Positions 42,522 through 63,145 of a stretch of DNA of 64,000 nucleotides are shown here, one piece after another (the stretch's first letter is position 1; each line of letters starts with the position of its first letter). Source of the DNA: Bradyrhizobium sp. WSM1743 (lineage in GTDB: Bacteria; Pseudomonadota; Alphaproteobacteria; Rhizobiales; Xanthobacteraceae); contig NZ_AXAZ01000004.1 of NCBI RefSeq assembly GCF_000473065.1, forward strand, positions 124,001-188,000. The letters run 5' to 3'. The position numbers and the translations under genes were made by a program. The notes under the pieces were generated by a model, which saw nothing but the letters and a program-made list of their open reading frames with translations, made no database searches and was not told the origin of the DNA.

Positions 42522-42573
42522 GCCCGTATCGGCCCGAATGAAGGTGAGATCCCGCTGGCGAAGGCGCATTTAG

Positions 42574-42598: not shown

Positions 42599-42661
42599 GC
42601 TCGGTTTCACTTGCCCTTTGCCAATGAACAGCTGGCATCACGGCATTACTGGGAGGACTTC

Positions 42662-44266: not shown

Positions 44267-44283
44267 TCGTGCGCTGAGGCCAG

Positions 44284-48132: not shown

Positions 48133-48420
48133 TCAACCCTGCCGGCGCATGAAGCCCGTGATCGTGACCTTTTCCCAGATGCCGGCCGCGGCAAAGGGAT
48201 CGGCGCGGTTGAAGGCTTCGACCTCGGCGCGGCCCGGTGCCTCGATCAGGAACAGGCTGCCGATCATCGTCTCGCCGTCGTCGGAGACCAGCGGTCCCGA
48301 CATGACGATCTTGACGCCGAAGCGCGAGGTATCGCTCAGGAAAGCCTTGTGGGCGTCATAATTGGCAAGCCGGGTCGGCAGCGCGCCGGTGCGGTCGACG
48401 GCGTGAATGGCAAACAGCAT
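48133..48420 (-). CDS. YciI family protein
   Basis: A 95-residue protein of the YciI family, a dimeric alpha+beta barrel fold shared with muconolactone isomerases and Dabb proteins. The FAIHAVDRTGALPTRLANYDAH opening (split here into FAIHAVDRTGA and RLANYDAH) and the central GSLFLIEAPGRAEVEAF with the DPFAAAGIW block are family-typical; a conserved His/Asp pair (YDAHK, ADPF) is proposed to be catalytic in some members. It is the last gene of the minus-strand catabolic operon, 71 nt after the binding-protein gene with a strong hairpin in between. A role as a lactone or ring-product hydrolase or isomerase is inference. Confidence 0.85.
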   Translation of the reverse strand: MLFAIHAVDRTGALPTRLANYDAHKAFLSDTSRFGVKIVMSGPLVSDDGETMIGSLFLIEAPGRAEVEAFNRADPFAAAGIWEKVTITGFMRRQG

Positions 48421-48449
48421 GATGTTTCCGTTTCTTGCTTCAGTTCTTG

Positions 48450-48473
48450 GGACGGCCGCAGGAGCGGCCGTCC
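48450..48473 (-). terminator. Perfect 10-bp hairpin between binding-protein and YciI genes
   Basis: GGACGGCCGC (48450-48459), a 4-nt loop and GCGGCCGTCC (48464-48473) form an uninterrupted stem 18 nt after the binding-protein stop. No U-tract follows on the minus strand, so it may be a processing or stabilising element that raises binding-protein mRNA relative to downstream genes, or a weak terminator. Confidence 0.45.
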
Positions 48474-48491
48474 GGACTCGTGGTGCTCGGC

Positions 48492-49466
48492 TTATTTCGC
48501 GCCGAGCTTGCCGGCCTCCTCGAAGGTCGGGCAGGTCCGCTGCTCCAGCGGCACGTCGAACGGCCCGTAATTGTCCTTGGTGATGACGGTCGGCTTCAGC
48601 ACGATCTCGTTGATGACTGGCTGATTGCGCAAGGAGCGGATCGCCATCATGGTGCCGAGGCAGCCTTGCGCGAATCCGTTGTAGTCGCCACTCGCCAGCA
48701 GCTTGCCGGACTTGATCGCGTCGATCGCCTCCTTGGTGCCGTTGATGCCGATCACCTGCGCCTTCCGGTTGGCGCCGTCGAGCGCCTCGATTGCCCCGAC
48801 CGCCATGGCGTCGTTGGCGGCGAGCACACCGTCGATCTGCGAATTCGACTGCATCAGATTCTCCATCACCTGGAGCGCCTGGAGTCGCTGGTAGTTGCCG
48901 GGCTGCGAAGCCAGGAGCTTGGCACCCGGGCTTTCCTTGAGCGCGTCGTTGAAGCCGCGGACGCGGTCGACATTGGTCAGCGAGCCCTTGACGCCTTCGA
49001 TGATGACGATGTTGCCCTTGCCGCCGAGCGTCTTGAGCAGGAAACGCGCCGTCTCCAAGCCAAGGCTGTAATCATCGGCGCCGACGAAGGACAGGAACTT
49101 GCCGCCAGCAGAACGGTCGGTGATGTTGACGACGGGGATTTTGGCCTCGTTGATCTTCTCGACGCCCGGCACCATCGCCTTGTAGTCGACCGGCGTGAAC
49201 ACGATCGCGCTCGGCTTCTTCACCACGACGTCCTCGATCTGGCTGAGCTGCTCGGGGATGCTGTCGGGCTTGGTCGGGATGTATTGCAGCGTCTTCGCGT
49301 TCAGCGTCTTCGCCATGTTGTCGGCGCCGACCCGCACCGTCTGGAAGAACGGGTTGGTCTGGTTCTTGGTGAAGACAGCGATGGTCTCGCCGTCAGCACG
49401 CGCTCCAGTGCTGAACGCGGCCGCGATCAGCAGCGGCAGCGCCAGATAGCCCAGTTTACGTTTCAT
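48492..49466 (-). CDS. Sugar-type ABC importer substrate-binding protein (RbsB-like)
   Basis: A 324-residue periplasmic binding protein of the Peripla_BP_4 family. The signal peptide MKRKLGYLALPLLIAAAFS ends near GARAD (residue 27). VFTKNQTNPFFQTVR is the first ligand-site strand, and VLAANDAMAVGAIEALDG and GDYNGFAQG are conserved later. ATG at the complement of 49464-49466 was chosen because it opens the signal peptide directly; a longer frame starts at 49484. It follows the permease gene by 42 nt. RbsB-type proteins in aromatic or heterocycle operons bind non-sugar ligands in some cases, so the ligand is open. Confidence 0.9.
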   Translation of the reverse strand: MKRKLGYLALPLLIAAAFSTGARADGETIAVFTKNQTNPFFQTVRVGADNMAKTLNAKTLQYIPTKPDSIPEQLSQIEDVVVKKPSAIVFTPVDYKAMVPGVEKINEAKIPVVNITDRSAGGKFLSFVGADDYSLGLETARFLLKTLGGKGNIVIIEGVKGSLTNVDRVRGFNDALKESPGAKLLASQPGNYQRLQALQVMENLMQSNSQIDGVLAANDAMAVGAIEALDGANRKAQVIGINGTKEAIDAIKSGKLLASGDYNGFAQGCLGTMMAIRSLRNQPVINEIVLKPTVITKDNYGPFDVPLEQRTCPTFEEAGKLGAK

Positions 49467-49508
49467 GTTGCCTCCATCCCTCATTTTGCTTGTTGGAACT
49501 CTAGGAAC

Positions 49509-50486
49509 TCATTGCGCACGGCGGCGGGTCTTCATGTCGAGCCAGACCGCGAGAATGACGATGACGCCGGTGACGAGCGGCTGCCAATTGGCGCTGACCG
49601 ACAAGAGGTTCATGCCGTTCAGCACCAAGGTCAGGATCAGCGCGCCGATGAAGGTGCCGAACACGGTGCCGACGCCGCCGAACAGCGAGGTGCCGCCGAT
49701 CAGCACGGCCGCGATCGCCGGCAAGGTCAGGCTCTCGCCGATATCGGCCTCGGCTGAATTGAGCCGCGACAGGAAGATGATCGAGGCGAGCCCGGCCATG
49801 GTGCCTGATACCGCGTAGACCAGCAGCAGTCGACGCGCGACGGGAATGCCTGACAGCCGAGCTGCGACCGGATTGGCACCGATCGCGTAGATCTCCTGAC
49901 CCCAGATCGTCCGCTGCGCGAACATCGTCCCGATCCCGAGGAACACCAGCAGCAGATAGACCGGGATGGGCAGGCCGAACAAATAGCCGCTGCCGATCTG
50001 GCGGAAGCCGGCGGGAAAGCCGTGCAGGGTCTCACCCGCCATGTACCAATAGGTGAGGCCGTTCAGCACCCACAGCATGCCGTAGGTGGCGATGAAGGAG
50101 GGGATGCGGAGCGCGGTGACCATGATGCCGTTGAGCAGGCCAACGATGCCGCCGCAGGCAAGCCCGGTGAGGATGCCGAGCGCCGGCGAGCCGGTCTTGT
50201 GGATCACGGTGCCGGCGATGCAGGCGGACAGCGCGACATTGGCGCCGACCGAGAGGTCGAGGCCGGCGGTCAGCACCACGAGCGTGAGGCCGGAGGCGAT
50301 GAAGAAGGTCAGGCTCGCCTGCCGGAGCACGTTGAGGATGTTGCCGAGGCTCAGGAAGGAATCGCTGAGCACGGCGAGCACCGCGCAGATCAGCAGCGCC
50401 GCGAGCAGGCGATAGAACAGCTGGACCGCGTCCTGCGAGAGGAAGGAGCGGGGCGGCGCGATGGCGCCCTTGGTGATGTCGGTCAT
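49509..50486 (-). CDS. Sugar-type ABC importer permease (RbsC-like), second copy
   Basis: A 325-residue inner-membrane permease of the BPD_transp_2 family. TLVVLTAGLDLSVGANVALS is the hallmark of RbsC-type proteins, and IGGTSLFGGVGTVFGTFIGA is the conserved cytoplasmic loop and helix. Around eight to ten hydrophobic segments are visible. It is encoded 4 nt into the end of the other permease gene and probably forms a heterodimer with it. Confidence 0.92.
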   Translation of the reverse strand: MTDITKGAIAPPRSFLSQDAVQLFYRLLAALLICAVLAVLSDSFLSLGNILNVLRQASLTFFIASGLTLVVLTAGLDLSVGANVALSACIAGTVIHKTGSPALGILTGLACGGIVGLLNGIMVTALRIPSFIATYGMLWVLNGLTYWYMAGETLHGFPAGFRQIGSGYLFGLPIPVYLLLVFLGIGTMFAQRTIWGQEIYAIGANPVAARLSGIPVARRLLLVYAVSGTMAGLASIIFLSRLNSAEADIGESLTLPAIAAVLIGGTSLFGGVGTVFGTFIGALILTLVLNGMNLLSVSANWQPLVTGVIVILAVWLDMKTRRRAQ

Positions 50487-51433
50487 GCGCGGCTCCTGAG
50501 GCCGTCGAGGAACAGGGCGACGATGACGAGCACGCCGGCGCTTGCGACCTGCACCGAGGACGGCAGCGAGATCAGGTTCAGCCCGTTGCGCAACACGCCG
50601 ACGGAGAGGACCCCGAGCAGCGTGCCGAGCAGCCAGCCATTGCCGCGCTCGAACGAAGTGCCGCCGACTGCGACAGCCGCGATGGCATCGAATTCGAGGC
50701 CAAGGCCAGCGGTCGGGTGCCCGGAATTCATCCGCGCGGTCATCAACAGGCCAGCGATGCCGGCCATGGCGCCGCCGATGGCGTAGACGGCGATCAAGAG
50801 CCGGTTCGGCGACAGGCCAGCATAGCGCAAGGCTTCGCGGTTGCCGCCGAGTGCAAAAATATAGGTGCCGAAGCGGGTGTAATAGAGCAGGCCGTGAAAG
50901 GCCGCGTAGGTGACCAGCGCCATCACGATCGGAACGGGAATGCCGAGCAGCGTCGCCGAATAGATGTCGCGCACGCTGTGGGGAATGCCCACCACGCTCT
51001 GGCCGTCGCTGACGATCAGCGACAGGCCCTGCGCCATGCCGAGCGTGCCGAGGGTCGCGACGAAGGGCGGAATGCCCAGGATCGCGACCAGCCAGCCATT
51101 GGCGACGCCGAAGGCCGCGCCGACCAGCAGGCCGGCCCCCAGGCCCAGCAACATCGATTTCGTGGCGAGCGAGACGATGGCGACGCAGAGCGAGGTCAGC
51201 GTCAGCACCGCGCCCATCGACAGGTCCAGCCCCTCGGTCATGATGATCAAGGTCATCGGCAGCGCGAGCATGGTCAGGATGGTCGACTGCACCAGCACGT
51301 TGGAGAGATTGGCGACCGACAGGAAGCCGGGTGCGATCGCGCTGAACAGCGCGATCAGCAGCACCAGCACCATGGCAACGCCGGGAATGCGTTGCAGCGG
51401 ATTGGGCTCCGAGACGACCGCGGCCTCACGCAT
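50483..51433 (-). CDS. Sugar-type ABC importer permease (RbsC-like), first copy
   Basis: A 316-residue inner-membrane permease of the RbsC/BPD_transp_2 family. TLIIMTEGLDLSMGAVLTLT and VAVGGTSFERGNGWLLGTLL are the conserved motifs. Its start overlaps the ATPase stop by 8 nt and its end overlaps the second permease gene by 4 nt. Two non-identical permeases in one operon suggest a heterodimeric channel rather than the homodimer of classical RbsC. Confidence 0.92.
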   Translation of the reverse strand: MREAAVVSEPNPLQRIPGVAMVLVLLIALFSAIAPGFLSVANLSNVLVQSTILTMLALPMTLIIMTEGLDLSMGAVLTLTSLCVAIVSLATKSMLLGLGAGLLVGAAFGVANGWLVAILGIPPFVATLGTLGMAQGLSLIVSDGQSVVGIPHSVRDIYSATLLGIPVPIVMALVTYAAFHGLLYYTRFGTYIFALGGNREALRYAGLSPNRLLIAVYAIGGAMAGIAGLLMTARMNSGHPTAGLGLEFDAIAAVAVGGTSFERGNGWLLGTLLGVLSVGVLRNGLNLISLPSSVQVASAGVLVIVALFLDGLRSRA

Positions 51434-52949
51434 GATGCATCCCCAGTCGCACGATGTTCTCCTCCGTCAATTCGCTGCGTGTCAGATGTCCGGCGATGCG
51501 CCCCTCGCACATCACATAGGCGCGATCGCAGACATGGCAGATCTCGACCTGCTCGGACGAGATCATCAGGGCCGCCGCGCCTTCGGCGACGAGGCGGTCG
51601 ATCAGCGCAAAGATCTCCGACTTGGCGCCGATATCGATGCCTCGGGTTGGCTCGTCGAAGATGAAGAGTTTTGAGCCGGCCGCCAGCCATTTGCCGATCA
51701 CGACCTTCTGCTGGTTGCCGCCCGAGAGCAGGCCGACGGTCTGGCGTGCGCTTGGCGTTGCGATGCGGAGCTGCCGGATCAGTCCGTCGGATGTACGCTG
51801 CGCACTGCGTTTGTCGAACAGGCCGCTCGGGAACAGCTTCCGCAGCGCCGACACCACCAGATTGTCGCTCACCGAACGCAGCAGCGCGAGCCCTTCACTC
51901 TTGCGGCTCTCAGGGATCAGCGCGATGCCGCGGCGGGCCGCAAGGTCGGGCTCGCCGGAAATGCTCTTGCCGTCGAAGATGATCTCGCCCGATGTCACGG
52001 GATCGGCGCCGAAGATGGCACGCGCAACCTCGCTCCGGCCAGAGCCGACCAGGCCACAGAGCCCGACGATCTCACCCCGGCGCACCTCGATGTTGATATC
52101 GGAGATGCCGGTCGATGCGCTCAGGCCCTTGACCTCGAGCAGCACTTCGCCCGGCTTGTCGGCAAAGTTGCGCGGATAGGTCATGTCGACGTTGCGGCCG
52201 ACCATCATGCGGACGAGCTGGTCCGGCGTGACGTCGGCAGGCCGGACACCGTCGATGCGGCGGCCGTCGCGCAGCACAGTGATGCGATCGCCGAGCGCAA
52301 ACACCTCGGCCATGCGGTGGGAGATGTAGACGATCGAAACGCCATCGGCCTTCAGCCGCGCGATCAGCGCGAACAGCAGCTCGGTCTCGCGGTCCGACAG
52401 CGCCGCGGTCGGCTCGTCCATCACGAGGATGCGGGCATTCTGGCTGATCGCCTTTGCGATCTCCACCATTTGCTGCTGTGCCACACCGAGCTTGTCGACG
52501 GTGGTGGAGGGATCGATGTCGAAGCCGATGGTGTCGAGCACGCGCTTGGCGTCGGCCAGAATTTTGCGGCGGTCGATGGTGCCGGGGATGCGGCCCTTCG
52601 GCTCGCGTCCCAGGAATATGTTCTGGGCGATATCGAGATAGGGGACCAGCGAGAATTCCTGGAAGATCACGGCAATGCCGAGCTTCTGCGCATCCGCGGT
52701 CGAGGAGATCGCGACCTTCTCGCCCTTGTGGTAGAACTCGCCGGCGTCCGCGCGGTAGGCGCCGCACAGCACCTTCATCAGGCTCGACTTGCCGGCACCG
52801 TTCTCGCCCAGCAGCATGTGGACCTCGCCGGGGTAGACGGCGAAGGACACGTCGTCCAGCGCTTTGACGCCTGGAAATTCCTTGCTGATGCCGCGCAGCT
52901 CCAGCAGCGGGGTGGGCGAGGTGACCTCGATCGGAAGCGCGTCGCTCAT
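51426..52949 (-). CDS. Sugar-type ABC importer ATPase (RbsA-like, two domains)
   Basis: A 507-residue cytoplasmic ATPase with tandem nucleotide-binding domains. The first has Walker A GENGAGKS (about residue 48) and Walker B ILVMDEPTAALS; the second is RbsA-like, with a degenerate P-loop region (GLVGSGRSEV) and [15 protein letters not shown] plus LFIFDEPTRGIDIG. This asymmetry is normal for the family. It overlaps the FAD-oxidase gene upstream by ATGA, which ties the importer to the catabolic enzymes. Confidence 0.93.
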   Translation of the reverse strand: MSDALPIEVTSPTPLLELRGISKEFPGVKALDDVSFAVYPGEVHMLLGENGAGKSSLMKVLCGAYRADAGEFYHKGEKVAISSTADAQKLGIAVIFQEFSLVPYLDIAQNIFLGREPKGRIPGTIDRRKILADAKRVLDTIGFDIDPSTTVDKLGVAQQQMVEIAKAISQNARILVMDEPTAALSDRETELLFALIARLKADGVSIVYISHRMAEVFALGDRITVLRDGRRIDGVRPADVTPDQLVRMMVGRNVDMTYPRNFADKPGEVLLEVKGLSASTGISDINIEVRRGEIVGLCGLVGSGRSEVARAIFGADPVTSGEIIFDGKSISGEPDLAARRGIALIPESRKSEGLALLRSVSDNLVVSALRKLFPSGLFDKRSAQRTSDGLIRQLRIATPSARQTVGLLSGGNQQKVVIGKWLAAGSKLFIFDEPTRGIDIGAKSEIFALIDRLVAEGAAALMISSEQVEICHVCDRAYVMCEGRIAGHLTRSELTEENIVRLGMHHA

Positions 52950-54340
52950 ATCTTGGCTCCGCTCGCAAAGATCTTTCCAGGGTTCATCAGTCCGATCGGG
53001 TCAAGCGCGGTCTTGATCTGCCGCATCACGTCGACGGCCTCGCCGAGCTCATCGGAGAGATAATCGATCTTGCCGAGCCCGATGCCGTGCTCGCCAGTGC
53101 AGGTGCCGTCCATGGCGATGGCGCGGGCGACCATGCGGGCCTGCAGCGCCTTGGCGGCTTCGGCCTCCTCGGGCTTGGCCGGGTCGATCAGGATCAGCAT
53201 GTGGAAATTGCCGTCGCCGACATGGCCGACGATCGGCGCGGTAAAGCCGTGCTCGTCAGCGTCGCGCCGCGTCTCGGTCAGGCATTCCGCCAGCCGCGAG
53301 ATCGGGACGCAGACATCGGTGATCACGGCGCGTGCGCCCGGCCGCAGGCCGAGGCCGGCATAGAGCGTGTTGTCGCGGGCGTGCCAGAGCCGGCTGCGGT
53401 CTTCCTGCGCCTTCGCCCAGGCAAAGCCGTGACCGCCATGGTCGGCGGCGATCGCCTGCGCAGCCTCGGCCTGTTCGGCGACGGAGGTTTCGGAGCCGTG
53501 GAATTCGAAGAACAGAGTGGGGGCCTCGCGATAGCCGAGCTTTGCGTAAGCGTTGATGCCGCGCATCATGACGTCGTCGAGCAGCTCGATGCGGGCGACG
53601 GGGATTGCGGACTGGATCACAGAGATCGCAGTGTCGACGGCGTCGTGCAGGGTGTCGAAGCTGCAGACCGCGGCCGAAATGGCCTGCGGCACGGGGTGGA
53701 CCTTCAGCGTGATCTCGGTGATGACGCCGAGCGTCCCCTCCGCGCCGACGAACATGCGTGTCACGTCGTAGCCGGCCGCCGATTTCCGCGCCCGCCGGGC
53801 GGTGCGGATCACGCGGCCGTCGGCCAGCACCACCTCCAGCGCCATGACATTGTCCTTCATGGTGCCGTAGCGCACCGCCATGGTGCCGGAGGCACGGGTG
53901 GACGTCATGCCCCCGATCGAGGCGTCGGCGCCGGGATCGATCGGGAAGAACAGGCCGGTGTTGCGCAGTTCGGCATTGAGCTGCTTGCGCGTGATGCCGG
54001 GCTGCACCACCACATCCATGTCGCTGTCGTGCACCGCAAGCACCTTGTTCATGCGCACGAAGTCGAAGCAGACGCCGCCGGCGACCGCAGCCGCATTGCC
54101 TTCGAGCGAGGTGCCGGCGCCGAACGGCACGATCGGCATGCCTGCGCCAGCGCAGAGCTTGACGATCTCGGCCACCTCCTGCGTCGTCTCGGGAAAGACG
54201 ACGATGTCTGGCGGCAGGTTGCGATAATGCGACTCGCTCTGCCCGTGTTGATCGAGCACGCCGCGCGCGACGCTCGCGCGCGGGCCGATCATGCCGGTAA
54301 GGCGCTCGGCCAATATGCTCGTGCTGACCCGCGGTCCCAT
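52946..54340 (-). CDS. FAD-binding oxidase, GlcD/D-lactate dehydrogenase type
   Basis: A 464-residue flavoprotein of the FAD_binding_4/FAD-oxidase_C family, which oxidises 2-hydroxy acids (glycolate, D-lactate and others) and passes electrons to a quinone or cytochrome. PFGAGTSLEGNAAAVAGGVC is the FAD pyrophosphate loop; GHVGDGNFHMLI and CTGEHGIGLGK are the C-terminal catalytic blocks. No cysteine-rich Fe-S partner is encoded here. In this operon it might oxidise a 2-hydroxyacid or a reduced catabolite downstream of ring cleavage; the substrate is unknown. It starts at the complement of 54338-54340, 51 nt after the dioxygenase gene. Confidence 0.88.
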   Translation of the reverse strand: MGPRVSTSILAERLTGMIGPRASVARGVLDQHGQSESHYRNLPPDIVVFPETTQEVAEIVKLCAGAGMPIVPFGAGTSLEGNAAAVAGGVCFDFVRMNKVLAVHDSDMDVVVQPGITRKQLNAELRNTGLFFPIDPGADASIGGMTSTRASGTMAVRYGTMKDNVMALEVVLADGRVIRTARRARKSAAGYDVTRMFVGAEGTLGVITEITLKVHPVPQAISAAVCSFDTLHDAVDTAISVIQSAIPVARIELLDDVMMRGINAYAKLGYREAPTLFFEFHGSETSVAEQAEAAQAIAADHGGHGFAWAKAQEDRSRLWHARDNTLYAGLGLRPGARAVITDVCVPISRLAECLTETRRDADEHGFTAPIVGHVGDGNFHMLILIDPAKPEEAEAAKALQARMVARAIAMDGTCTGEHGIGLGKIDYLSDELGEAVDVMRQIKTALDPIGLMNPGKIFASGAKI

Positions 54341-54391
54341 CCTCAGCTCCCGTCTGCTCCCTATCGGACTCTTGTTGGTCCGTCGTCCAGC

Positions 54392-55276
54392 TTAAGCGGC
54401 TCTCGCGTTGCTCGCGAGCTGCTTCAAGCCGAAATCGTAGCTGAGATGAAAATAATCGCGCTCCACCATGCGACCATCCGGCGCACGGCCGGCCGGCTGA
54501 CGGACGAACTCGCGGATCAGGCTGTCCTTGACGCCGAACACCACGTCAGAGTCGAGATATTTGTCGCCGGCGACGAACACGTGCGTCACGAGCTGTTCGA
54601 AACCTGGCGCCGAGATCATGAAATGCACATGTGCCGGTCGCCAGGGATGACGTCCTTGCACCTCCAGCATCTCGCCCACCGGGCCGTCATGCGGAATAGG
54701 GTAGGCCGCGGGCTTGATCGACCAGAAATGGAAGCGGCCATTGCTGTCAGTGTGGAAGCGCGCGCGCATCGCGAGATCGCCGATCTGGTCGAGCTGCTGC
54801 ACGTCGTAATAGCCGTCATCGTCGGAGTGCCAGACGTCGACGATGGCCCCCGCCAGCGGCTTTCCGTCCACGCTCGAGACCGAGCCGGTGACCAGCATCG
54901 GATCCCCTTCCATCGGGCCGGAGATATCCGCGCCGCTGTCCTTCTCCGGCGCGGCCTGGACGAAGAAGGGGCCGAGCACCGTGGTCTCGGTCGCGCCTTC
55001 GGGCACCGGATGGTTGATGGCGTCGACCAGCATGGAAACGCCGAGCGTGTCCGACAGCAGGATGAACTCCTGGCGCTTGTCGTCGCACATGTGCCCGGTG
55101 CGGGTCAGGAAATCGATCCCGTACTCCCATTCCTTCTGAGTCGGCCGCACCTCGCGGACGAAGGCGTGAAGGTGACGCACCAGCGCCTCGCTGATTTGTT
55201 TGATGCGCGGGTCGGTCACGCCCGCGATCCGCTCCAGCACCGCTTCCGTGATCGTGTTTTCGTTGAAGTTACGCAT
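54392..55276 (-). CDS. Intradiol ring-cleavage dioxygenase, hydroxyquinol 1,2-dioxygenase type
   Basis: A 294-residue Fe(III) dioxygenase that cleaves a catechol or hydroxyquinol between the hydroxyls. The four iron ligands can be placed: Tyr157 (DDGYYDVQ), Tyr192 (AAYPIPHDG), His216 and His218 (RPAHVHFMI). The GYYDVQ motif and the N-terminal helical domain are nearer to hydroxyquinol and chlorocatechol enzymes than to CatA, and the maleylacetate reductase gene in the same operon supports hydroxyquinol (product maleylacetate). ATG at the complement of 55274-55276 follows a GGAG; a GTG at 55294, overlapping the upstream stop, is an alternative. Confidence 0.9.
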   Translation of the reverse strand: MRNFNENTITEAVLERIAGVTDPRIKQISEALVRHLHAFVREVRPTQKEWEYGIDFLTRTGHMCDDKRQEFILLSDTLGVSMLVDAINHPVPEGATETTVLGPFFVQAAPEKDSGADISGPMEGDPMLVTGSVSSVDGKPLAGAIVDVWHSDDDGYYDVQQLDQIGDLAMRARFHTDSNGRFHFWSIKPAAYPIPHDGPVGEMLEVQGRHPWRPAHVHFMISAPGFEQLVTHVFVAGDKYLDSDVVFGVKDSLIREFVRQPAGRAPDGRMVERDYFHLSYDFGLKQLASNARAA

Positions 55277-55290
55277 AGGGGCTCCGTTGA

Positions 55291-56193
55291 TCACAGCTTC
55301 GGCTCGCCGAGGCCGGACAGCCGTTCGAGATGCTTGACGGTCGCGATGAAGTCGATCTCACCTTCGCCTTGCGCGACCAGCGAGCCATAGGTCTCGCGCA
55401 CCTGGGCTGCGAGCTGAAGCGGCACGCCGACGGCGTGGCCGGCACCTAAGATGAGGTCGAGATCCTTGGCCATCTGCTTGCAGGAGAAGGTGGACTCGAA
55501 GTCGCGGGTCCGCAGCGGCGCGGTCTTGTATTTCACCATGGGCGAGGCGACCGCGCTGTCGTCGAGCACTTTCAGGATGTCCTGCCAGGCGATGCCGCCC
55601 TTGCGCGCCAGCGCCAGGCTCTCCGCCATCATCGCCGCCGACACCGCGATCATCAGGTTGACCGAGAGCTTTGCGTAGCGCGCTTCCTCGGCCGGTCCGA
55701 GATAGGTCTGGGCGCGGGTGAAGGCCGCGAACAGCGGCTTGGCGCTTTCGAAGGCGTCCTTCGGCCCCGACACGAAGCAGGTCAGCGCGCCCGTGTGCAC
55801 GATGCTGGCATTGCCGGAGACCGGCGATCGAAGATAGGCAATGCCGCGTGCCTGCGCTGCGGCCGCAACTTCGGTGGACGCCTCGACGCTCACGGTGCTG
55901 GTCTCGATCAAGATGGCTCCGGGCGCCATCGCCACGATCAGGCCGGAGGCGCCAAGCAGGGTGCCGCGCAGTGCTACGTCATCGGGCAGGGAGGTGATGA
56001 GGGCTGCCTTGCCGTTCACGGCTTCGGCTGGCGAGGCGGCAATCGAGATGCCTTGCGCGCGAGCCTCATCGAGTCGCGCCACGCTCTGGTCGAACGCGGT
56101 GACGGCGTAACCCGCCTTGGCAACCAGCACTGACATCGGCAGGCCCATCTTGCCGATCCCGATGAAAGCAACATGCTTCGAAGCGTCTGTCAT
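55291..56193 (-). CDS. NAD(P)-dependent oxidoreductase, 3-hydroxyisobutyrate dehydrogenase-like
   Basis: A 300-residue beta-hydroxyacid dehydrogenase. The N-terminal Rossmann motif AFIGIGKMGLPMSVLVAKAG binds NAD(P); SPVSGNASIVHTGALT is the substrate-binding block, and the catalytic Lys lies in ARYAKLSVNLMIA (about residue 173). Family members act on 3-hydroxyisobutyrate, tartronate semialdehyde, 6-hydroxynicotinate-pathway or similar acids, so the substrate is open. It lies 21 nt after the amidohydrolase gene and its stop overlaps a possible GTG start of the dioxygenase gene. Confidence 0.88.
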   Translation of the reverse strand: MTDASKHVAFIGIGKMGLPMSVLVAKAGYAVTAFDQSVARLDEARAQGISIAASPAEAVNGKAALITSLPDDVALRGTLLGASGLIVAMAPGAILIETSTVSVEASTEVAAAAQARGIAYLRSPVSGNASIVHTGALTCFVSGPKDAFESAKPLFAAFTRAQTYLGPAEEARYAKLSVNLMIAVSAAMMAESLALARKGGIAWQDILKVLDDSAVASPMVKYKTAPLRTRDFESTFSCKQMAKDLDLILGAGHAVGVPLQLAAQVRETYGSLVAQGEGEIDFIATVKHLERLSGLGEPKL

Positions 56194-56214
56194 TGTTCTT
56201 GTCCATTGGCGCCG

Positions 56215-57588
56215 CTAGGCAGCGCGTTCCTGTCGTTCGATGTCCTGCACCAGCCGCTGGCCGGATTGCGCCAGCAGCTCCTTCTTCGCCTCCAGCCCCT
56301 CGACCAGCAGCCGTCCGTTCCGCTTCTTCCAGGCGCCGCCGATCATGACCGCCTCGATGTTGGCGAGGCTCGTCTGCATCACGACGGTCGCGACGGGATC
56401 GTGCACCGGGACAAGGTTGAGATCGGAGGCGTTGATGATCACGAGGTCGGCATGCTTACCCGGCGTCAGCGAACCGATCTGGTGCTCGCGGCCAAGCATG
56501 CGCGCGCCCTCCGTCGTGATCCAGCGCAGCGTCTCGCGCACCGGAATCGTGGTCGTCGCCGGAATGGTGCCGCTCAGTTTGCGCGACTCCGCATTGTCGA
56601 GCGCCCGCTGCATCGAGAGCGCAACGCGGGCGGCGGAGAGGAGATCGCCGGCCAGCACGGACTCCAGATCAATGCCGATGGTCGGCCGTACGCCGCGCGC
56701 GAGCAGCCGTCCGGTGATCGGAAAGCCATGGCCCTGGATCATCTCGTTCTCGGGCGTCACCGAGAACGACACGCCGAGGTCAATCATCCGGTCCAGCAAC
56801 TCATCGGGCAGATCGTTGCCGTGAACGACATTGACGCTGGCGCCGACGAGGCCCGCCTCGATCAGCTTCTCCCAGCCGCCGGGTGTCTTGGCGGGACCGC
56901 CGCCTTGATGCATCGATGCGATCAGGTTGAGCTCCCGTGCCAGGTGAAAATCATGCATGGCGACGTCGAGCGTCGAATAATGTGGGCCGAGAATGGCCAG
57001 CCCCAACGTGACGAGGCCGTCGCGGTCGGCGAGGGGGCCCGCCAGCAGGCGTTCAACCTCGTGGCGCGGATGCGGCACTTCCGAGAAATGAGGCTCGCCC
57101 AGTTTCGGCTCGGATTTTGGCGAGCCGTGGAAGAAGGCGGCGCGAATGCCGCTCTCGATCAGGCCGCGCACGGCGGCGTCGGTATGATCGGGCGTCGGAT
57201 TGTTGTGGCACCAGTCGACCAGCGTCGTGGTGCCGCAATTGATCTGGTTCAGCGCGCCGACGAGAGTCGCGATATGGATGTCCTCGGGCCGGAACACGGT
57301 CGCGAGGCCCGCATGCATGCGGCGGAAATATTCAAGCAGCGTCCAGTTCGCGGCAAAGCCGCGCAAGCCCGTCTGCCAGGTGTGCATGTGCGCGTTGATC
57401 AGGCCCGGGATGACGATGCGGCCCTTGCCGTCGACGATCTCGGTCTCGGCGGCGCCGCTGCCAAGATCGATCGATGGACGCACCTCAGCGATGCGGCTGC
57501 CCTCGACCAGCACGTCGCCGCTCGAGAGGTCGCCGATCGCGTCATCCATGCTGATGACGGTGGCCGATTTGATCAGCGTGCGCCGCAT
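56215..57588 (-). CDS. Metal-dependent amidohydrolase, TRZ/ATZ (cytosine deaminase-like) family
   Basis: A 457-residue amidohydrolase that deaminates or dechlorinates nitrogen heterocycles or hydrolyses related C-N bonds. Likely metal ligands are His67 and His69 (NAHMHTWQ), His227 (MHQGGG), His256 (VVHGND) and Asp307 (IGIDLES). The HMHTWQTGLRG block is typical of the TRZ/ATZ and 8-oxoguanine deaminase branch. The family's usual GTDS after the last strand is GIDLES here. It is flanked by ring-cleavage genes and may remove an amino group or side chain from the imported compound before oxidation. The MAR gene lies 4 nt upstream. Confidence 0.88.
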   Translation of the reverse strand: MRRTLIKSATVISMDDAIGDLSSGDVLVEGSRIAEVRPSIDLGSGAAETEIVDGKGRIVIPGLINAHMHTWQTGLRGFAANWTLLEYFRRMHAGLATVFRPEDIHIATLVGALNQINCGTTTLVDWCHNNPTPDHTDAAVRGLIESGIRAAFFHGSPKSEPKLGEPHFSEVPHPRHEVERLLAGPLADRDGLVTLGLAILGPHYSTLDVAMHDFHLARELNLIASMHQGGGPAKTPGGWEKLIEAGLVGASVNVVHGNDLPDELLDRMIDLGVSFSVTPENEMIQGHGFPITGRLLARGVRPTIGIDLESVLAGDLLSAARVALSMQRALDNAESRKLSGTIPATTTIPVRETLRWITTEGARMLGREHQIGSLTPGKHADLVIINASDLNLVPVHDPVATVVMQTSLANIEAVMIGGAWKKRNGRLLVEGLEAKKELLAQSGQRLVQDIERQERAA

Positions 57589-57592
57589 CGCC

Positions 57593-58672
57593 TCACGCCG
57601 CCGCTTTGGTGGCGCTCGGCGGCTCGCCGGCCCAGGAGCGCGCGATCAGGTCGCGAATGGCGCCACGGTCGAGCGGGCGCGGATTCCAGTAGGCATTCGT
57701 CACCGCGAGATCGGCCGCCTTGTCGATTCCGCTCTCGGGCATGCCGACATCGCGCAGCGCGAGCTTTGCACCCAGCCGCTTCGCAAGGTCGTACAGCCCT
57801 TTCGATGCATCGGCCGCGCCGATCGCGCGCGAGATGCGTACCATTGCATCGGGCACGGCCGGTGCGTTGTAGGCCAGCGCATGCGGCAGCACGATGGTGT
57901 GGGTTTCGGCGTGCGGCAGGTCGAAGGTGCCGCCGAGCGTGTGGCAGAGCTTGTGATGCAGCGCCATGCCAACGGTGCCCAGACAAACACCGCACAGCCA
58001 GGCGCCATAGAGCGCTTCGGTGCGGGCCTCGCGGTCGTCGGCCTTGGCGGCGATCGCGGGCAGGGCGCACGACAGCGCGCGGATGCCTTCTTCCGCCATC
58101 AGCGACGTCACGGGATTGGCATCGCGCGCGTAGAGCGCCTCGACCGCATGCGCGATCGCATTGATGCCGGATGTCGCGGCTAAGCTCGCCGGCAGCGTCA
58201 AGGTGAGATCCACATCGTAGATCACGGTCTCCGGCAGCACGGCGGCATCGCGCACCGTGGTCTTCAGCCCGTTCTCGGTCTGGCCGACGATCGGCGTCAT
58301 CTCCGAGCCGGCATAGGTGGTGGGAATGCAGAGCTGGTTGACACCGGTGCGCAAGGCCAGCGCCTTGCCGAGGCCGGTGGTCGAGCCGCCGCCGAGCGAG
58401 ACGACGCAGTCCGCCCCGCACGCCTTCATCACAGCGAGCGCACGTTCCGTGACCTCGACCGGCGTGTGCATGGTGGCGCCTGGAAAGATGCCGGCATAGA
58501 GCGGGCCGAGCGCGATCCCCAAGCTCTTGCCTTGCGCCTCTTGCTGCTGCGTCGTCAGCACCAGCGCGCGCGTGCCGCCGAGCCGCTCGAGCTCGGCCTT
58601 GGCGGCGGCCAGCGTGCCGCTGCCGAACACGACGCGGCAGGGCAGGTTTTCAAAGGTGAACGAACCGATCAT
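57593..58672 (-). CDS. Maleylacetate reductase
   Basis: A 359-residue iron-containing alcohol dehydrogenase family enzyme that reduces maleylacetate to 3-oxoadipate with NAD(P)H, the step after hydroxyquinol cleavage. GGGSTTGLGKALAL is the nucleotide-binding region, IPTTYAGSEMTPIVG is MAR-specific, and GINAIAHAVEALY and LHHKLCHTLGGTFDLPHAE include the metal-ligand His positions. ATG at the complement of 58670-58672 opens MIGSFTFENLPCRVVFG, the usual MAR N-terminus; a much longer in-frame reading has no family support. It overlaps the Dabb gene by ATGA. Confidence 0.93.
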   Translation of the reverse strand: MIGSFTFENLPCRVVFGSGTLAAAKAELERLGGTRALVLTTQQQEAQGKSLGIALGPLYAGIFPGATMHTPVEVTERALAVMKACGADCVVSLGGGSTTGLGKALALRTGVNQLCIPTTYAGSEMTPIVGQTENGLKTTVRDAAVLPETVIYDVDLTLTLPASLAATSGINAIAHAVEALYARDANPVTSLMAEEGIRALSCALPAIAAKADDREARTEALYGAWLCGVCLGTVGMALHHKLCHTLGGTFDLPHAETHTIVLPHALAYNAPAVPDAMVRISRAIGAADASKGLYDLAKRLGAKLALRDVGMPESGIDKAADLAVTNAYWNPRPLDRGAIRDLIARSWAGEPPSATKAAA

Positions 58673-58992
58673 GCGCCGGTCTCTTTGATGGGATAATCGA
58701 CCTGGAAGCGCCCGATCCGCAAGTCGCCCAAGGCCTCGCGCACCCGCAGGTGTTCGGGGTGGTTGGCATAGGCGGTAAGGGCGGCTTGGTCCTTGAATTC
58801 GGAGAACAGGACCACGTCGCAGGCGTAGTCGACCGCGCTGACGTCCATGCCGACTTCGATATGGGTGAGGCCCTCGATCCGGCCTTTGAGGCCCTCGAAC
58901 AGGGTCTTGACCTTGAGCCGGGCGGCGGAGCGCTCCGCAGGCGTCTCCCCGCGCAGCCGCCACATCACGATGTGCCTGATCGGGCCCGACAT
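58669..58992 (-). CDS. Dabb (stress-responsive alpha/beta barrel) family protein
   Basis: A 107-residue protein of the Dabb family, with the HIVMWRLRGETPAERSA opening and the conserved HIEVGMDVSA and YANHPEHLRV blocks. The fold is the dimeric alpha+beta barrel also used by muconolactone isomerases and YciI proteins. It is the first gene of the operon, with the LysR regulator divergent on the other side. Dabb proteins occur in several resorcinol and hydroxyquinol clusters, but no reaction is proven for this one. Confidence 0.85.
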   Translation of the reverse strand: MSGPIRHIVMWRLRGETPAERSAARLKVKTLFEGLKGRIEGLTHIEVGMDVSAVDYACDVVLFSEFKDQAALTAYANHPEHLRVREALGDLRIGRFQVDYPIKETGA

Positions 58993-59098
58993 TTCCTGAT
59001 TTCCTCGCCTGCGACGGTGTTTGTTGGCGGCATTTTGCCTTGCAGAAATCGGAAATAAAGGCCAAAATTTGTAAGTCTCTTTTCCTCATTCTGCAAAA
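58993..59098. promoter_or_regulatory. Divergent promoter/operator region of the catabolic operon and LysR gene
   Basis: This 106-nt gap separates the Dabb (minus) and LysR (plus) start codons. TTGCAGAA (59040-59047) and TTCTGCAA (59089-59096) form an 8-bp inverted repeat 41 nt apart, the latter ending 2 nt before the LysR ATG. ATTTTGCCTTGCAGAAAT (59032-59049) has the ATTT-N10-AAAT shape of a LysR box. These are candidate binding sites for the LysR protein. Confidence 0.5.
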
Positions 59099-60022
59099 AT
59101 GGACCGGCTGCTCCAACTCGAGGTCTTCTCCAAAACCGCTGAGCTCGGCAGCCTTTCCAAGGCTGCCGAAATGCTGCGGATGTCGAACGCGGCCGCGAGC
59201 CGTCATCTCAGCGCGCTGGAGGAGCGGCTTGCGGTCCGGCTGATCGAACGCAACACGCGCCGGCAATGGCTGACCGAAGCAGGGCAGGAGTTGTTGCAGC
59301 GCTGCAGTGCGCTGCTGAACGAGCTCGCCGAAGCCGAGGACGCCGTTTCCGACCGAGCGCTGTCGCCGAAGGGCATGCTGCGCGTCACGTCTTCGCTGTC
59401 CTTCGCGATGATCTATCTCGCGCCGATGCTGCCTGCCTTCCGCGCGCTCTATCCCAATCTCAGCGTGCAGATCATCAGCGCGAACCGCTACCCTGACTTC
59501 ATCGAAGCCGGCATCGACGTCGCGATCCGCACGCGGGAGCATGAGCCGGATTCCAACATCATCGTCCGCCGCATCGGCCAGATGCATCGCGTGCTCGCGG
59601 CCGCTCCCTCCTACCTCGAGAAGCACGGCCGGCCGGAGCATCCCGCCGATCTCGCCCGGCACAACATGCTGATCTACAATCTCGCCAACGATCCCTATTC
59701 GCTGCGGCTGAGCCAGGGCAGCACGACGCAGACGGTGCGGATCGCGCCGACGCTCGACAGCAACGATGGCCAGATCATCTGTGGTGCAGCGCGCGCGGGG
59801 CTCGGCATCCTGATCCAGCCGCTCTATATCGTGCAGGGCGATATCGCGGCCGGCCGGCTGGTGCCCGTGCTGAGGGACTGGCAGCTGCCGCTGCTCACCA
59901 TGAATATCGCCTATCAAAACCGCGTCCGGCTGCCCGCCAAGATCAGGGTGTTCTCCGACTTCCTGGTCAGCTACATCCGCGAGCATTCGGAGCCGGGGAT
60001 CTGGATCGACGCGGCGAAGTGA
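59099..60022 (+). CDS. LysR-type transcriptional regulator
   Basis: A 307-residue DNA-binding regulator with an N-terminal winged helix-turn-helix (about 1-60; GSLSKAAEMLRMSNAAASRH) and a LysR substrate-binding domain (about 90-295). It is the likely activator or repressor of the divergent hydroxyquinol-type operon, by the usual LysR arrangement. The inducer is unknown; a pathway intermediate is usual. Its C-terminal part resembles the CrgA/PecT branch, with ANRYPDFIEAGIDVAIRTRE. It lies 13 nt before the xylulokinase gene, so it may be co-transcribed with a sugar gene. Confidence 0.92.
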   Translation: MDRLLQLEVFSKTAELGSLSKAAEMLRMSNAAASRHLSALEERLAVRLIERNTRRQWLTEAGQELLQRCSALLNELAEAEDAVSDRALSPKGMLRVTSSLSFAMIYLAPMLPAFRALYPNLSVQIISANRYPDFIEAGIDVAIRTREHEPDSNIIVRRIGQMHRVLAAAPSYLEKHGRPEHPADLARHNMLIYNLANDPYSLRLSQGSTTQTVRIAPTLDSNDGQIICGAARAGLGILIQPLYIVQGDIAAGRLVPVLRDWQLPLLTMNIAYQNRVRLPAKIRVFSDFLVSYIREHSEPGIWIDAAK

Positions 60023-60035
60023 GCGGGAAGCATTC

Positions 60036-61481
60036 ATGTATCTCGGCATCGATCTCGGCACCTCGGCGGTCAAGACCGTTCTCGTCGACGATGCGCAGCG
60101 CGTGATTGCAAGCGAGAGCCGGGCGCTCGCGACCGCCTCGCCGCAATCAGGCTATTACGAGCAGGATCCCGCGCAATGGATCGAGGCGACCTTTGTGACG
60201 CTGGATGCCCTGAAGGCGTCACATGCCCGCGCGCTGGCGGCGGTCGAAGGCATTGGACTGTCCGGCCAGATGCACGGTGCCACGCTGCTCGACGCGAGCT
60301 CGAGGCCGCTGCGGCCTTGCATTCTCTGGAACGACGGCCGCTCGGCCGCTGAGTGCCGTGTCCTGGAGCAACGCTGGCCCGCCTTGCGTGCGACGACGGG
60401 CAACAAGGCGATGCCGGGTTTCACCGCGCCGAAGCTGCTCTGGATCGCCACGCACGAGCCTGAGATCTTTGCGGCGACCAAGCTTGTTCTGCTGCCAAAG
60501 GCCTATCTGCGCCTGATGCTATCAGGCGAGGCCGTCGAGGATGTCTCTGATGCATCGGGATCGCTGTGGCTCGACGCTGCGCGCCGGGACTGGTCGGACG
60601 CAGCCCTGGCAGCGACCGGCTTGTCGCGCGAGCACATGCCGCGCCTGGTTGAGGGATGCGCGCCCGCAACGACACTGCGCCGCGAGCTCGCGCAGCGCTG
60701 GGGCATGACCAAGCAGCCGGTGATCGCGGGCGGTGCCGGCGACAATCCGGCCGGCGCCGTCGGCATCGGCGCGATCCGGCCGGGAGCCGCGTTCGTGTCG
60801 CTGGGAACCTCGGGCGCCCTCATGGCGCCGACCGATAGGATCGCCGCGAATCCCGATCGCGTTGTGCACACGTTCTGCCACTCCATTCCCGGCATGTGGA
60901 TCCAGGCCGGCGCGATCCTCTCGGCCGCCTCCTGCCTCGCCTGGGTCGCGCACCTGTTCGGCGTCACTGAAGCCGAGCTGCTCGCGCCGCTCGGCTCGCG
61001 CCCGCGGGCTCCGTCGCCGGTGAGCTTCCTGCCTTATCTCGCGGGTGAACGGACCCCGCACGACGATCCCGCCGTGCGCGGCATGCTCGATGGCCTGAGC
61101 CACGGCACCGATCGCGCGGCGATCGTGCAGGCGGTGCTCGAGGGCGTTGCCTTCGCGCTCGCCGATTGTCGCGACGCGCTCGCCGATGCCGGCATTGCGA
61201 TTGCGGAAGCCGATGTCATTGGCGGTGGTTCGCGGTCCCGGTTCTGGCTCTCGGTGCTGACCAACGTGCTGAATGTTCCGGTCCATCGCTTTGCCGGCGG
61301 TGAGACCGGCGCGGCGTTCGGTGCGGCAAGATTGGGGCGGCTTGCTGTCACCGGTGAGGCAATCGGTGACGTTTGCACACGTCCGCAGCGCATCGAGACA
61401 TTCGAACCTGACGCCGGGCTGACGGACGCTTATGCCGAGCGGCTTCCCGCATGGCGCGAACTGTATCGGCCGCGCCACTAG
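60036..61481 (+). CDS. xylB: Xylulokinase
   Basis: A 481-residue FGGY-family carbohydrate kinase that phosphorylates D-xylulose to xylulose 5-phosphate. YLGIDLGTSAVKTVL is the first phosphate motif, LSGQMHGATLLD and ILWNDGRSAAEC are XylB-typical, and GGAGDNPAGAVG and GGGSRSRFWLSVL are the second and adenosine motifs. The FGGY substrate range is broad, so xylulose is the likely but unproven substrate. The neighbouring sugar-type ABC importer starting at 61622 supports pentose or pentitol use. It is 13 nt downstream of the LysR gene. Confidence 0.9.
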   Translation: MYLGIDLGTSAVKTVLVDDAQRVIASESRALATASPQSGYYEQDPAQWIEATFVTLDALKASHARALAAVEGIGLSGQMHGATLLDASSRPLRPCILWNDGRSAAECRVLEQRWPALRATTGNKAMPGFTAPKLLWIATHEPEIFAATKLVLLPKAYLRLMLSGEAVEDVSDASGSLWLDAARRDWSDAALAATGLSREHMPRLVEGCAPATTLRRELAQRWGMTKQPVIAGGAGDNPAGAVGIGAIRPGAAFVSLGTSGALMAPTDRIAANPDRVVHTFCHSIPGMWIQAGAILSAASCLAWVAHLFGVTEAELLAPLGSRPRAPSPVSFLPYLAGERTPHDDPAVRGMLDGLSHGTDRAAIVQAVLEGVAFALADCRDALADAGIAIAEADVIGGGSRSRFWLSVLTNVLNVPVHRFAGGETGAAFGAARLGRLAVTGEAIGDVCTRPQRIETFEPDAGLTDAYAERLPAWRELYRPRH

Positions 61482-61503
61482 CTGGCCCAATCTGGTTTGC
61501 ATA

Positions 61504-61527
61504 CTTCGGTATACTCGCCTTCGGTAT
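61504..61527. repeat. Direct repeat in the importer promoter region
   Basis: CTTCGGTAT occurs at 61504-61512 and again at 61519-61527, exactly 15 bp apart from start to start, in the 140-nt gap before the importer ATPase. This could be an operator with same-face half-sites or chance. No regulator is adjacent other than the LysR gene. Confidence 0.35.
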
Positions 61528-61621
61528 TGCCCTGCGTCACCCGCTTTTGTTTAATGACCAAACCGCGCTGACGAGAAGCTTGAGACGCGGGTAGGAAACG
61601 CATTGTGCGCCGGGAGGCACG

Positions 61622-63145
61622 ATGAACGATCCGATCCTCGAGATGCGCGGGGTCTCAAAATCCTTCTTTGGCATCAAGGCGCTGCGTTCCGTCGATCTCA
61701 CGGTCTATGCCGGCGAAATTCATGCCCTGATGGGCGAGAACGGCGCCGGCAAGTCGACGCTGATGAAGATCCTGTCCGGCGCCTATAGGCCTGATCCCGG
61801 CGGCGAGATCCGCATCGAAGGCAAGGCGGTGCGGATCGAAGGCCCGCTCGGCGGCCGCGCTGCGGGCATCTCCATCATCTATCAGGAGCTGTCGCTCGCG
61901 CCCAATCTCACTGTGGCCGAGAATATTTATCTCGGCCGGGAAATATCGCGATCAGGTTTGCTGGCGCGCGGGACGATGCGCGAGGGTGTCGGCCCCATCT
62001 TGACGAGACTGGGCGCAGACTTCCTGCCATCGACACTGGTGGCGAATCTGTCCATGGGCCAGCGGCAACTGGTCGAGATCGCGCGTGCGCTGCACGCCAG
62101 ATCAAAGATTCTGATCATGGATGAGCCGACCACTTCGTTGTCGGCTGCCGAGAGCGAGCGGCTATTCGCGCTGATCCGCCAGCTTCGTGCCGAGGGGCTT
62201 GCCATCATCTATATCTCGCATCGCATGGACGAGGTCTACGCGCTTGGCGACCGCGTCACGGTGCTGCGCGACGGTCGGCTGGTCGGCTCGCTGGACAAGC
62301 CCGAGATCCGCGCCGACACCATCGTCCGGCTGATGGTCGGGCGCGACGTCTCCTCGTTCTACAAGAAGGATCACGATCCGGAGGCGGGGCGAGGACATCC
62401 CGTGCTCGCGGCGATCGACATGGCCGATGGCCAGCGCGTCAAGGGTTGCTCGCTCACCGTGCATGCGGGTGAGGTGGTCGGGCTTGCCGGCCTGATCGGC
62501 GCCGGCCGCACCGAGCTTGCGCATCTCATCATCGGCGCGGCGCCCAAGATATCTGGCCGGCTCGAGCTGGAGGGACGCCCCGTCGATATCCGTACGCCGG
62601 GCGAGGCGCTCGAGGCCGGCATCGCCTATCTGACGGAAGACCGGAAGGCGCTCGGGCTGTTTCTCGACATGTCGTGCTTGGACAACATCAATCTCGCCGT
62701 GCTCGGGCACGATGCGAAGCTCGGCTGGGTTCTGGATCGCGACAAGGCGCGTGAGCGCGCTGAGCGGGCCTTCGCAGGCCTCAGCATCCGCGCCGCCAAT
62801 GTCGGCGTTTCCGCCGGCGGCCTCTCCGGCGGCAACCAGCAGAAGGTACTGCTGTCGCGGCTTCTGGCCATTGCGCCAAAAGTGCTGATCCTCGACGAGC
62901 CGACGCGTGGCGTCGACGTCGGCGCCAAGTCGGAGATTTATTCGATCATCGACAATCTGGCCAAGGCCGGCACCGCGATCCTGGTTATCTCGTCCGATCT
63001 GCCCGAGATCATCGGCATCTGCGACCGCGTCATCGTCATGCGGTCCGGGCACATCGCCGGTGAGATCAGGCGAACCGAGACTGCGCCGTTAAACCAAGAG
63101 GATATCATGGCACTTGCCACGGGGATGGAGCATCTCGATGCCTGA
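61622..63145 (+). CDS. Sugar-type ABC importer ATPase (RbsA/XylG-like)
   Basis: A 507-residue two-domain cytoplasmic ATPase for a pentose-type importer. Walker A GENGAGKS (about residue 40) and [16 protein letters not shown] lie in the first domain; the degenerate [10 protein letters not shown] and [15 protein letters not shown] plus [13 protein letters not shown] lie in the second, as in RbsA and XylG. The GGGAGG ribosome-binding site precedes the ATG. The next gene, a permease, overlaps it by 8 nt. No binding-protein gene lies upstream; it may follow the permease beyond the window. It is distinct from the other RbsA-like ATPase at 51426. Confidence 0.93.

Follow-up and report, generated by a model that had tools for sequence, protein, structure and literature searches.

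A conserved rhizobial operon combining a hydroxyquinol lower pathway with a CUT2 importer and a PRK08204-type amidohydrolase

Results

Gene content and layout of the locus

The locus described here lies in a 64,000-nucleotide stretch of the Bradyrhizobium sp. WSM1743 genome (contig NZ_AXAZ01000004.1, positions 124,001 to 188,000; assembly of 8.34 Mb in 163 contigs), which we call the window. Eleven minus-strand genes run from window position 58992 down to 48133 with spacings of -8 to 71 bp: Dabb, maleylacetate reductase (MAR), an amidohydrolase (AmiH), a 3-hydroxyisobutyrate-dehydrogenase-like (HIBDH-like) enzyme, hydroxyquinol 1,2-dioxygenase (HQDO), a GlcD-like flavoenzyme, the ATPase, two permeases, and binding protein of an ABC importer, and a YciI-family protein (Table 1). 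From Dabb to YciI the successive intergenic distances are -4, 4, 21, -4, 51, -4, -8, -4, 24, and 71 bp, and a LysR gene on the plus strand diverges from the run, starting 106 bp from Dabb. An earlier reading of the bare sequence (the original prediction) had described these genes as an operon, and its layout holds: all the named genes are present in the list of open reading frames, on one strand, with overlaps or short gaps and a divergent LysR gene. Pfam and NCBIfam scans covered ten of the eleven proteins and agree with the gene names for all ten; the one left out, the permease at 50483-51433, resembles the permease 2 copies of related loci in BLAST (about 36%). Among the ten scanned proteins, no hydroxylase and no nitrogen-handling gene was recognized. 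Separate promoters inside the run would have contradicted the original prediction. A site scan found no promoter-like or terminator-like site on the minus strand (its three hits, one promoter-like and two terminator-like, all lie on the plus strand), which goes against such promoters but is a weak test, such scans being weakly informative for this organism.

Table 1. Features of the operon and its control region in window coordinates.
Feature	Coordinates	Strand	Basis
Dabb (A/B barrel), operon gene 1	58669..58992	-	Pfam Dabb E 6e-24
Maleylacetate reductase (MAR)	57593..58672	-	PDB 3jzd, 3w5s, 3hl0 matches
Amidohydrolase AmiH, NCBIfam subfamily PRK08204	56215..57588	-	NCBIfam score, metal-ligand alignment
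Beta-hydroxyacid dehydrogenase, 3-HIBDH/tartronate-semialdehyde-reductase-like	55291..56193	-	Pfam NAD_binding_2, NAD_binding_11; PDB 3pdu E 7e-41
Hydroxyquinol 1,2-dioxygenase (HQDO)	54392..55294	-	PDB 1tmx E 3e-92, 312 bits
FAD-linked D-2-hydroxyacid dehydrogenase, D-lactate-dehydrogenase-like ('GlcD-like')	52946..54340	-	PDB 8jdc E 5e-160
CUT2 (Rbs-type) ABC importer ATPase	51426..52949	-	Pfam/NCBIfam
CUT2 permease 1	50483..51433	-	Open reading frame; BLAST similarity to permease 2 copies; conserved order
CUT2 permease 2	49509..50486	-	Pfam BPD_transp_2 E 8e-40
CUT2 periplasmic binding protein	48492..49484	-	Pfam Peripla_BP_4; PDB 2ioy
YciI-family protein, final operon gene	48133..48420	-	Pfam YCII; PDB 4lbh E 4e-10
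LysR-type regulator, divergent	59099..60022	+	Divergent in 65/65 complete loci
Intergenic control region (candidate LysR operator)	58993..59098	.	Conserved blocks, 69-sequence alignment

A hydroxyquinol lower pathway

HQDO converts hydroxyquinol to maleylacetate, which MAR converts to 3-oxoadipate. Compared with PDB sequences, the operon dioxygenase scores 312.5 bits against 1tmx and 302.8 bits against 6-chlorohydroxyquinol dioxygenase but 140.7 bits against the best catechol 1,2-dioxygenase, so it is not a plain catechol enzyme. Aligned to 1tmx, it keeps ten of the eleven residues that we take to be markers of the family (L80, D83, V107-F111, I199, P200, R218, and V251), the exception being F108, replaced by leucine. 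MAR is similar over its full length to the solved maleylacetate reductases 3w5s (E 3e-126) and 3hl0 (E 5e-123), and its top PDB match, 3jzd (E 4e-131), is named an iron-containing alcohol dehydrogenase. By homology, then, the dioxygenase is a hydroxyquinol 1,2-dioxygenase and the reductase a maleylacetate reductase, and the lower pathway assigned to the operon by the original prediction is borne out by solved enzymes of both types.

Conservation of the gene order

To describe conservation, we compared the best 80 of 260 dioxygenase-bearing loci in species genomes, counting a gene as present at BLAST identity of at least 50% over at least 40% of the protein; the closest dioxygenase matches among these 80 are from Bradyrhizobium. 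All eleven genes occur in the same order in 65 of the 80 loci, and the LysR gene is divergent in every one of the 65. The 15 exceptions include three short contigs (L021, L025, and L044), four loci (L083-L086, two of which carry the name Tardiphaga) without Dabb and a LysR gene of the operon type, one (L079) that lacks MAR and the amidohydrolase, one (L081) that lacks the amidohydrolase and HIBDH, and four in which the dioxygenase is accompanied by no more than Dabb, MAR, or both (L063, L070, L078, and L080; L078 is from the same strain as L045, discussed below). Such a shared gene order is far beyond chance.

The dioxygenase (E 1e-110 or better) was found in 51 of 296 genomes sampled from the family, including 17 of the 27 from the window's genus, and an AmiH orthologue in 16 of those 27. 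At 66% identity or more, AmiH occurs in 39 of the 296 genomes, intact in 38 and split in G580, and every one of these genomes also belongs to the 51 with the dioxygenase. Forty regions from this sample, mostly the more divergent ones and with some strains overlapping the 80 loci, extend the picture. Thirteen carry LysR and all eleven genes, with HIBDH identity down to 58% and, in two, a second binding-protein gene. One lacks only YciI (near a contig end), four only Dabb and LysR, one Dabb, LysR, and YciI, and four MAR, Dabb, and LysR (one of these cut by a contig end); one is the split case, two come from the strains that carry L079 and L081, and in the remaining 14 the dioxygenase stands with at most MAR, Dabb, and LysR. 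In one genome (G287, C1:1964395-1965282), the HQDO match contains one TAG stop in an otherwise complete operon, possibly a gene end that is read through. Outside the family, LysR and all eleven genes lie on a plasmid of Bosea vaviloviae, and a second Bosea plasmid has the same arrangement with three genes missing from an incomplete gene table. The single run of genes foreseen in the original prediction is thus conserved in order in related loci, in further genera, and on a Bosea plasmid.

The importer

The transporter genes form a CUT2 set, with a fused ATPase, two permeases (permease 1 by similarity), and a Peripla_BP_4 binding protein. This binding protein falls under all 23 equivalog or subfamily cut-offs that NCBIfam lists for it and scores 153.9 bits against the RbsB equivalog, with a cut-off of 337. 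When it is aligned to Escherichia coli RbsB, the residues that we take to be ribose contacts are partly kept (N13, F15, F16, R141, and N190) and partly changed (F164 to Y, S103 to A, D215 to N, and Q235 to Y); opposite RbsB D89 and R90 the binding protein has T and D, and moving the alignment by one residue would bring a D-R pair into register. A divergent LacI-family gene is found in three relatives (G580, L151, and L161), and the CUT2 importer together with LacI suggests a sugar-like ligand.

The amidohydrolase

The original prediction called AmiH a TRZ/ATZ amidohydrolase and took it to point to a nitrogen-bearing aromatic or heterocyclic substrate. The label is right as to family and metal ligands, but the specific subfamily is PRK08204 (615 bits, cut-off 391), which NCBIfam names 'hypothetical protein'. 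By sequence, the solved proteins closest to it are atrazine chlorohydrolase, the best match, and 8-oxoguanine deaminase, both distant (best 75 bits). An AlphaFold model built from eight close sequences had a mean pLDDT of 50.6 and was not used. The predicted metal ligands H67, H69, H227, H256, and D307 (HxH, H, H, D) are invariant in 27 aligned rows from several genera, in which one gene was apparently entered twice (L083 and L151) and a fragmentary copy (L159) was left out. Three residues past H227, the glutamate of the HxxE motif is found in none of the 27 rows: AmiH reads H-Q-G-G where two 8-oxoguanine-deaminase-type chains read H-L-A-E. As E. coli controls, SsnA, a putative aminohydrolase, aligned with glycine at this position and GuaD gave no alignment, which leaves the alignments with the two 8-oxoguanine-deaminase-type chains as the basis of the contrast.

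The missing glutamate weakens the case for the usual deaminase chemistry in AmiH, which we set aside, without excluding every nitrogen substrate. The wider proposal, that the operon handles a nitrogen-bearing aromatic or heterocyclic compound, such as one of the benzoxazinoid type, from which AmiH makes a hydroxyquinol precursor by deamination or by opening of an amide or lactam, draws on the solved relatives of AmiH, and amide hydrolysis yielding glyoxylate would give the HIBDH-like and GlcD-like enzymes something to do; SsnA, moreover, lacks the glutamate as well, so that its absence is not decisive. On the other side stand the 27 rows without it, the lack of a recognized nitrogen-handling gene in the operon, and two strains without an amidohydrolase orthologue in which the importer, GlcD-like, YciI, and dioxygenase genes are kept. 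The step from amidohydrolase to nitrogen-bearing substrate is therefore not supported, and we think such a substrate distinctly unlikely.

AmiH was found in eight of 398 genomes sampled from the phylum (E 1e-80) and two of 385 from the class (E 1e-150), all of this family; scoring was limited to some four candidates in each genome, so that copies may have been missed, and outside the family AmiH is known from plasmid records. Among its relatives of about 38-54% identity in other genera, none of the neighborhoods matches the operon, and some are alike among themselves.

The GlcD-like, HIBDH-like, and YciI proteins

The protein named 'GlcD-like' scores 341 bits, below the GlcD equivalog cut-off of 568, and is closest to mitochondrial D-lactate dehydrogenase (536 bits; PDB 8jdc); neither a GlcE nor a GlcF partner is found in the operon. 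The HIBDH-like protein likewise falls below the NCBIfam equivalogs for tartronate semialdehyde reductase (170 bits, cut-off 341) and 3-hydroxyisobutyrate dehydrogenase (159 bits, cut-off 292). For YciI, the sole match among PDB sequences is TftG (4lbh, E 4e-10), a 5-chloro-2-hydroxyhydroquinone dehydrochlorinase.

This match raises the question of whether the operon encodes a halogenated aromatic pathway like the tft pathway for 2,4,5-trichlorophenoxyacetate (2,4,5-T), with YciI as dehydrochlorinase and AmiH, whose best match is atrazine chlorohydrolase, as hydrolytic dehalogenase. We consider this highly improbable: no chlorophenol monooxygenase is among the scanned operon proteins, the spread over several genera at 58-75% identity seems unlike that of a recent xenobiotic pathway, and the importer and LacI suggest a sugar-like ligand.

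Lower and upper units

In the genome with the split amidohydrolase (G580), genes for a cytochrome P450, a ferredoxin, and an FMN reductase precede MAR-HQDO, and about 2 kb further on LacI, AmiH in two pieces, HIBDH, GlcD, the importer, and YciI form a unit without a dioxygenase. Elsewhere, Dabb travels with LysR, MAR, and HQDO in short loci (L063, L070, and L172); it is perhaps a tautomerase or cyclase-like helper. Together, these loci make the operon look like the sum of a lower unit (LysR, Dabb, MAR, and HQDO) and an upper unit (AmiH, HIBDH, GlcD, importer, and YciI), whose junction is kept in several genera. Two functions might therefore simply share one transcript, sugar-acid uptake and use by the importer, GlcD-like, HIBDH-like, amidohydrolase, and YciI proteins and an ordinary hydroxyquinol pathway, as the short Dabb/MAR/HQDO-only loci and the separate units of G580, where a LacI gene diverges from the upper unit, would allow. 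Such a fusion is nonetheless unlikely, since the dioxygenase gene lies within the run, flanked by HIBDH and GlcD, in the 65 complete loci and in further genera, and since it accompanies AmiH in all 39 family genomes with an orthologue.

A more distant locus also speaks against fusion. A Skermanella rosea plasmid carries a CUT2 importer, an SDR protein, a ThuA protein, AmiH, HIBDH, HQDO, a reductase above the malonic-semialdehyde-reductase cut-off, MAR, and a BKACE enzyme, and no GlcD, Dabb, or YciI gene is annotated at this locus. Identities to the operon are 65% for AmiH, 58% for HIBDH, 64% for HQDO, and 63% for MAR, compared with 31% for the binding protein and 44% for the ATPase. The same four enzymes are thus joined to a different, distant CUT2 importer, which argues that importer and pathway belong together; with the family scans and the conserved order, this sustains the original prediction of an Rbs-type importer that goes with the pathway. 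On a plasmid of Paraburkholderia D15, we find LysR (49% identity, about 5 kb away), an MFS transporter, a porin, HQDO (53%), AmiH (57%), a reductase of the malonic-semialdehyde-reductase type, MAR (58%), and a GMC oxidoreductase, with a Dabb-like remnant containing stops between HQDO and AmiH. The association of AmiH with HQDO and MAR thus extends over two classes, with a varying importer and oxidoreductase. On a Variovorax plasmid, a 60% amidohydrolase comes after a GMC gene, and the stretch viewed contains no HQDO.

Other plasmids carry HQDO or an amidohydrolase in different settings. In Sinorhizobium meliloti Rm41 (L215) and Caballeronia NK8 (L219), HQDO-MAR is accompanied by an NTF2-like protein, a TIM-barrel or sugar phosphate isomerase, and an aldo/keto reductase; Rm41 adds a type II dehydroquinase. 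This gene content suggests that hydroxyquinol is reached there by another route, with an alicyclic compound as a conceivable starting point. Plasmids of Burkholderia anthina (from sorghum) and Shinella (L217/L221) have in common a unit in which a 48% amidohydrolase accompanies an FAD-dependent oxidoreductase and two alpha/beta hydrolases; the B. anthina flavoprotein is above the PRK06184 cut-off and has weaker matches to aromatic monooxygenases. This 48% amidohydrolase beside a flavin monooxygenase on a plasmid from sorghum brought up sorgoleone as a substrate, a link that we dropped as weak, no paper in the open-access literature searched joining both terms.

MAR and the HIBDH-like enzyme

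Five genomes have HIBDH beside HQDO, GlcD, and the importer and no MAR orthologue that we could find: four (G401, G628, G635, and G621) gave no match at the limits used, where the G635 and G621 assemblies are incomplete (77% and 87%) and G401 comes without a completeness figure, and the fifth, the single-contig genome G561, gave only two generic matches of 32-35%. In STM 3843 (G402/G603), MAR is present and no HIBDH orthologue was found. This pattern suggests that the HIBDH-like enzyme may be able to replace MAR in maleylacetate reduction. Strict complementarity between the two was rejected, because four genomes with divergent dioxygenases have neither. Of the 12 HQDO genomes without an HIBDH orthologue, by a search that had no positive control in the set but whose query matched its target in another search, eight have a MAR orthologue; the four with neither (G549, G418, G620, and G518) have dioxygenases of 58-68% identity outside such an operon, and two of them have generic matches of 32-36%.

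Control region and neighboring genes

The spacer between Dabb and LysR is 103 to 108 bp long in 67 of 69 aligned cases, the window included, and contains blocks conserved in nearly all of the 69 sequences, which are a candidate LysR operator.

Thirteen base pairs past LysR lies a xylulokinase gene, followed by a second CUT2-type ATPase gene (window 60036-63145, plus strand). A xylulokinase match adjoins 28 of the 65 complete loci, and these genes could form an operon of their own for a pentose or pentitol. Upstream, also on the plus strand, are a hydantoinase A/B pair, another amidohydrolase, and Opp/Dpp peptide-type importer genes (23570-27162, 32563-34032, and 37327-45225).

Discussion

The interpretation we favor is a dedicated catabolic operon that takes up a sugar-like aromatic conjugate or precursor, converts it to hydroxyquinol, and degrades this to 3-oxoadipate, and we see the chances for and against it as roughly balanced. 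The CUT2 importer would bring in a sugar-like compound bearing hydroxyl groups, for which the likeliest candidates are an aromatic conjugate of plant origin and a precursor of 1,2,4-trihydroxybenzene that is itself a quinone or a cyclitol. Its alcohol or 2-hydroxyacid group would be oxidized by the D-lactate-dehydrogenase-like flavoenzyme, after which the metal-dependent amidohydrolase would perform a hydrolytic cleavage and the HIBDH-like enzyme would reduce the aldehyde or keto acid released. By homology, as with TftG in the 2,4,5-T pathway, YciI and Dabb may aid a ring tautomerization or elimination. HQDO would then open hydroxyquinol to maleylacetate and MAR would reduce this to 3-oxoadipate, as homology and the established functions of their families predict, and LysR, from its position, probably controls the divergent promoter in this lineage. 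The HQDO and MAR steps are the ones with close solved relatives behind them, the earlier steps being suggested by gene context. Because no hydroxylase was recognized in the operon, hydroxyquinol would either come from a substrate that needs none or be made elsewhere.

Several observations weigh against this interpretation. The order proposed for the upper steps is conjecture. Two loci (L045 and L073) lack the GlcD-like gene and keep the other ten in order; with the two strains that lack the amidohydrolase and keep the importer, GlcD-like, YciI, and dioxygenase genes, they imply that single upper steps are dispensable. In G580 the lower and upper units stand apart, and in Paraburkholderia D15 an MFS transporter takes the place of the CUT2 importer. 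Finally, the sugar contacts of RbsB that are kept in the binding protein leave room for an ordinary sugar as ligand.

A bolder version of the dedicated-operon interpretation would have hydroxyquinol formed without a monooxygenase, through oxidation of an imported sugar-like conjugate and its cleavage by the glutamate-less amidohydrolase, with the HIBDH-like enzyme as a second, non-homologous maleylacetate reductase. We offer this tentatively and think it rather improbable.

The original prediction called the operon undescribed-looking, and we found no description of it, a statement that extends as far as the open-access literature searched. In the parts available to us, a study of chlorophenoxyacetate genes in Bradyrhizobium RD5-C2 (PMC8446748) covers a tfd set and does not mention hydroxyquinol, another paper (PMC10470551) concerns phloroglucinol cyclohydrolase, and a third (PMC6321122) holds nothing on the operon. 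We regard the locus as a variant form of a known pathway type, conserved across several genera. The dioxygenase and AmiH counts within the genus, and the order kept in related genera, indicate that the compound is probably common in soil or around roots. Knowing the ligand would tell what a widespread importer carries, might reveal a hydroxylase-free route to hydroxyquinol, and would assign a function to the PRK08204 subfamily.

Parts of the operon resemble several known systems. Its importer has the composition of Rbs-type CUT2 sugar importers, with one fused ATPase, two permeases, and one Peripla_BP_4 protein, but the binding protein differs from RbsB in scoring below the cut-off and in having N and Y in place of D215 and Q235. 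AmiH shares its family by sequence and its five metal ligands with TRZ/ATZ-type amidohydrolases (AtzA, TrzN, and 8-oxoguanine deaminase), whereas the HxxE glutamate that 8-oxoguanine deaminases carry is not found in it. In the tft cluster for 2,4,5-T, a YciI protein likewise stands beside HQDO and MAR; none of the proteins scanned here matches a chlorophenol monooxygenase, the similarity of YciI to TftG is modest, and the importer and upper enzymes are not known from tft. With the gra and tsd clusters for gamma-resorcylate and resorcinol, the operon has HQDO and MAR in common. Those clusters place a decarboxylase and a hydroxylase beside HQDO and MAR, neither of which is among the ten scanned proteins; this operon instead adds a CUT2 importer, an amidohydrolase, and HIBDH-like and D-lactate-dehydrogenase-like enzymes.

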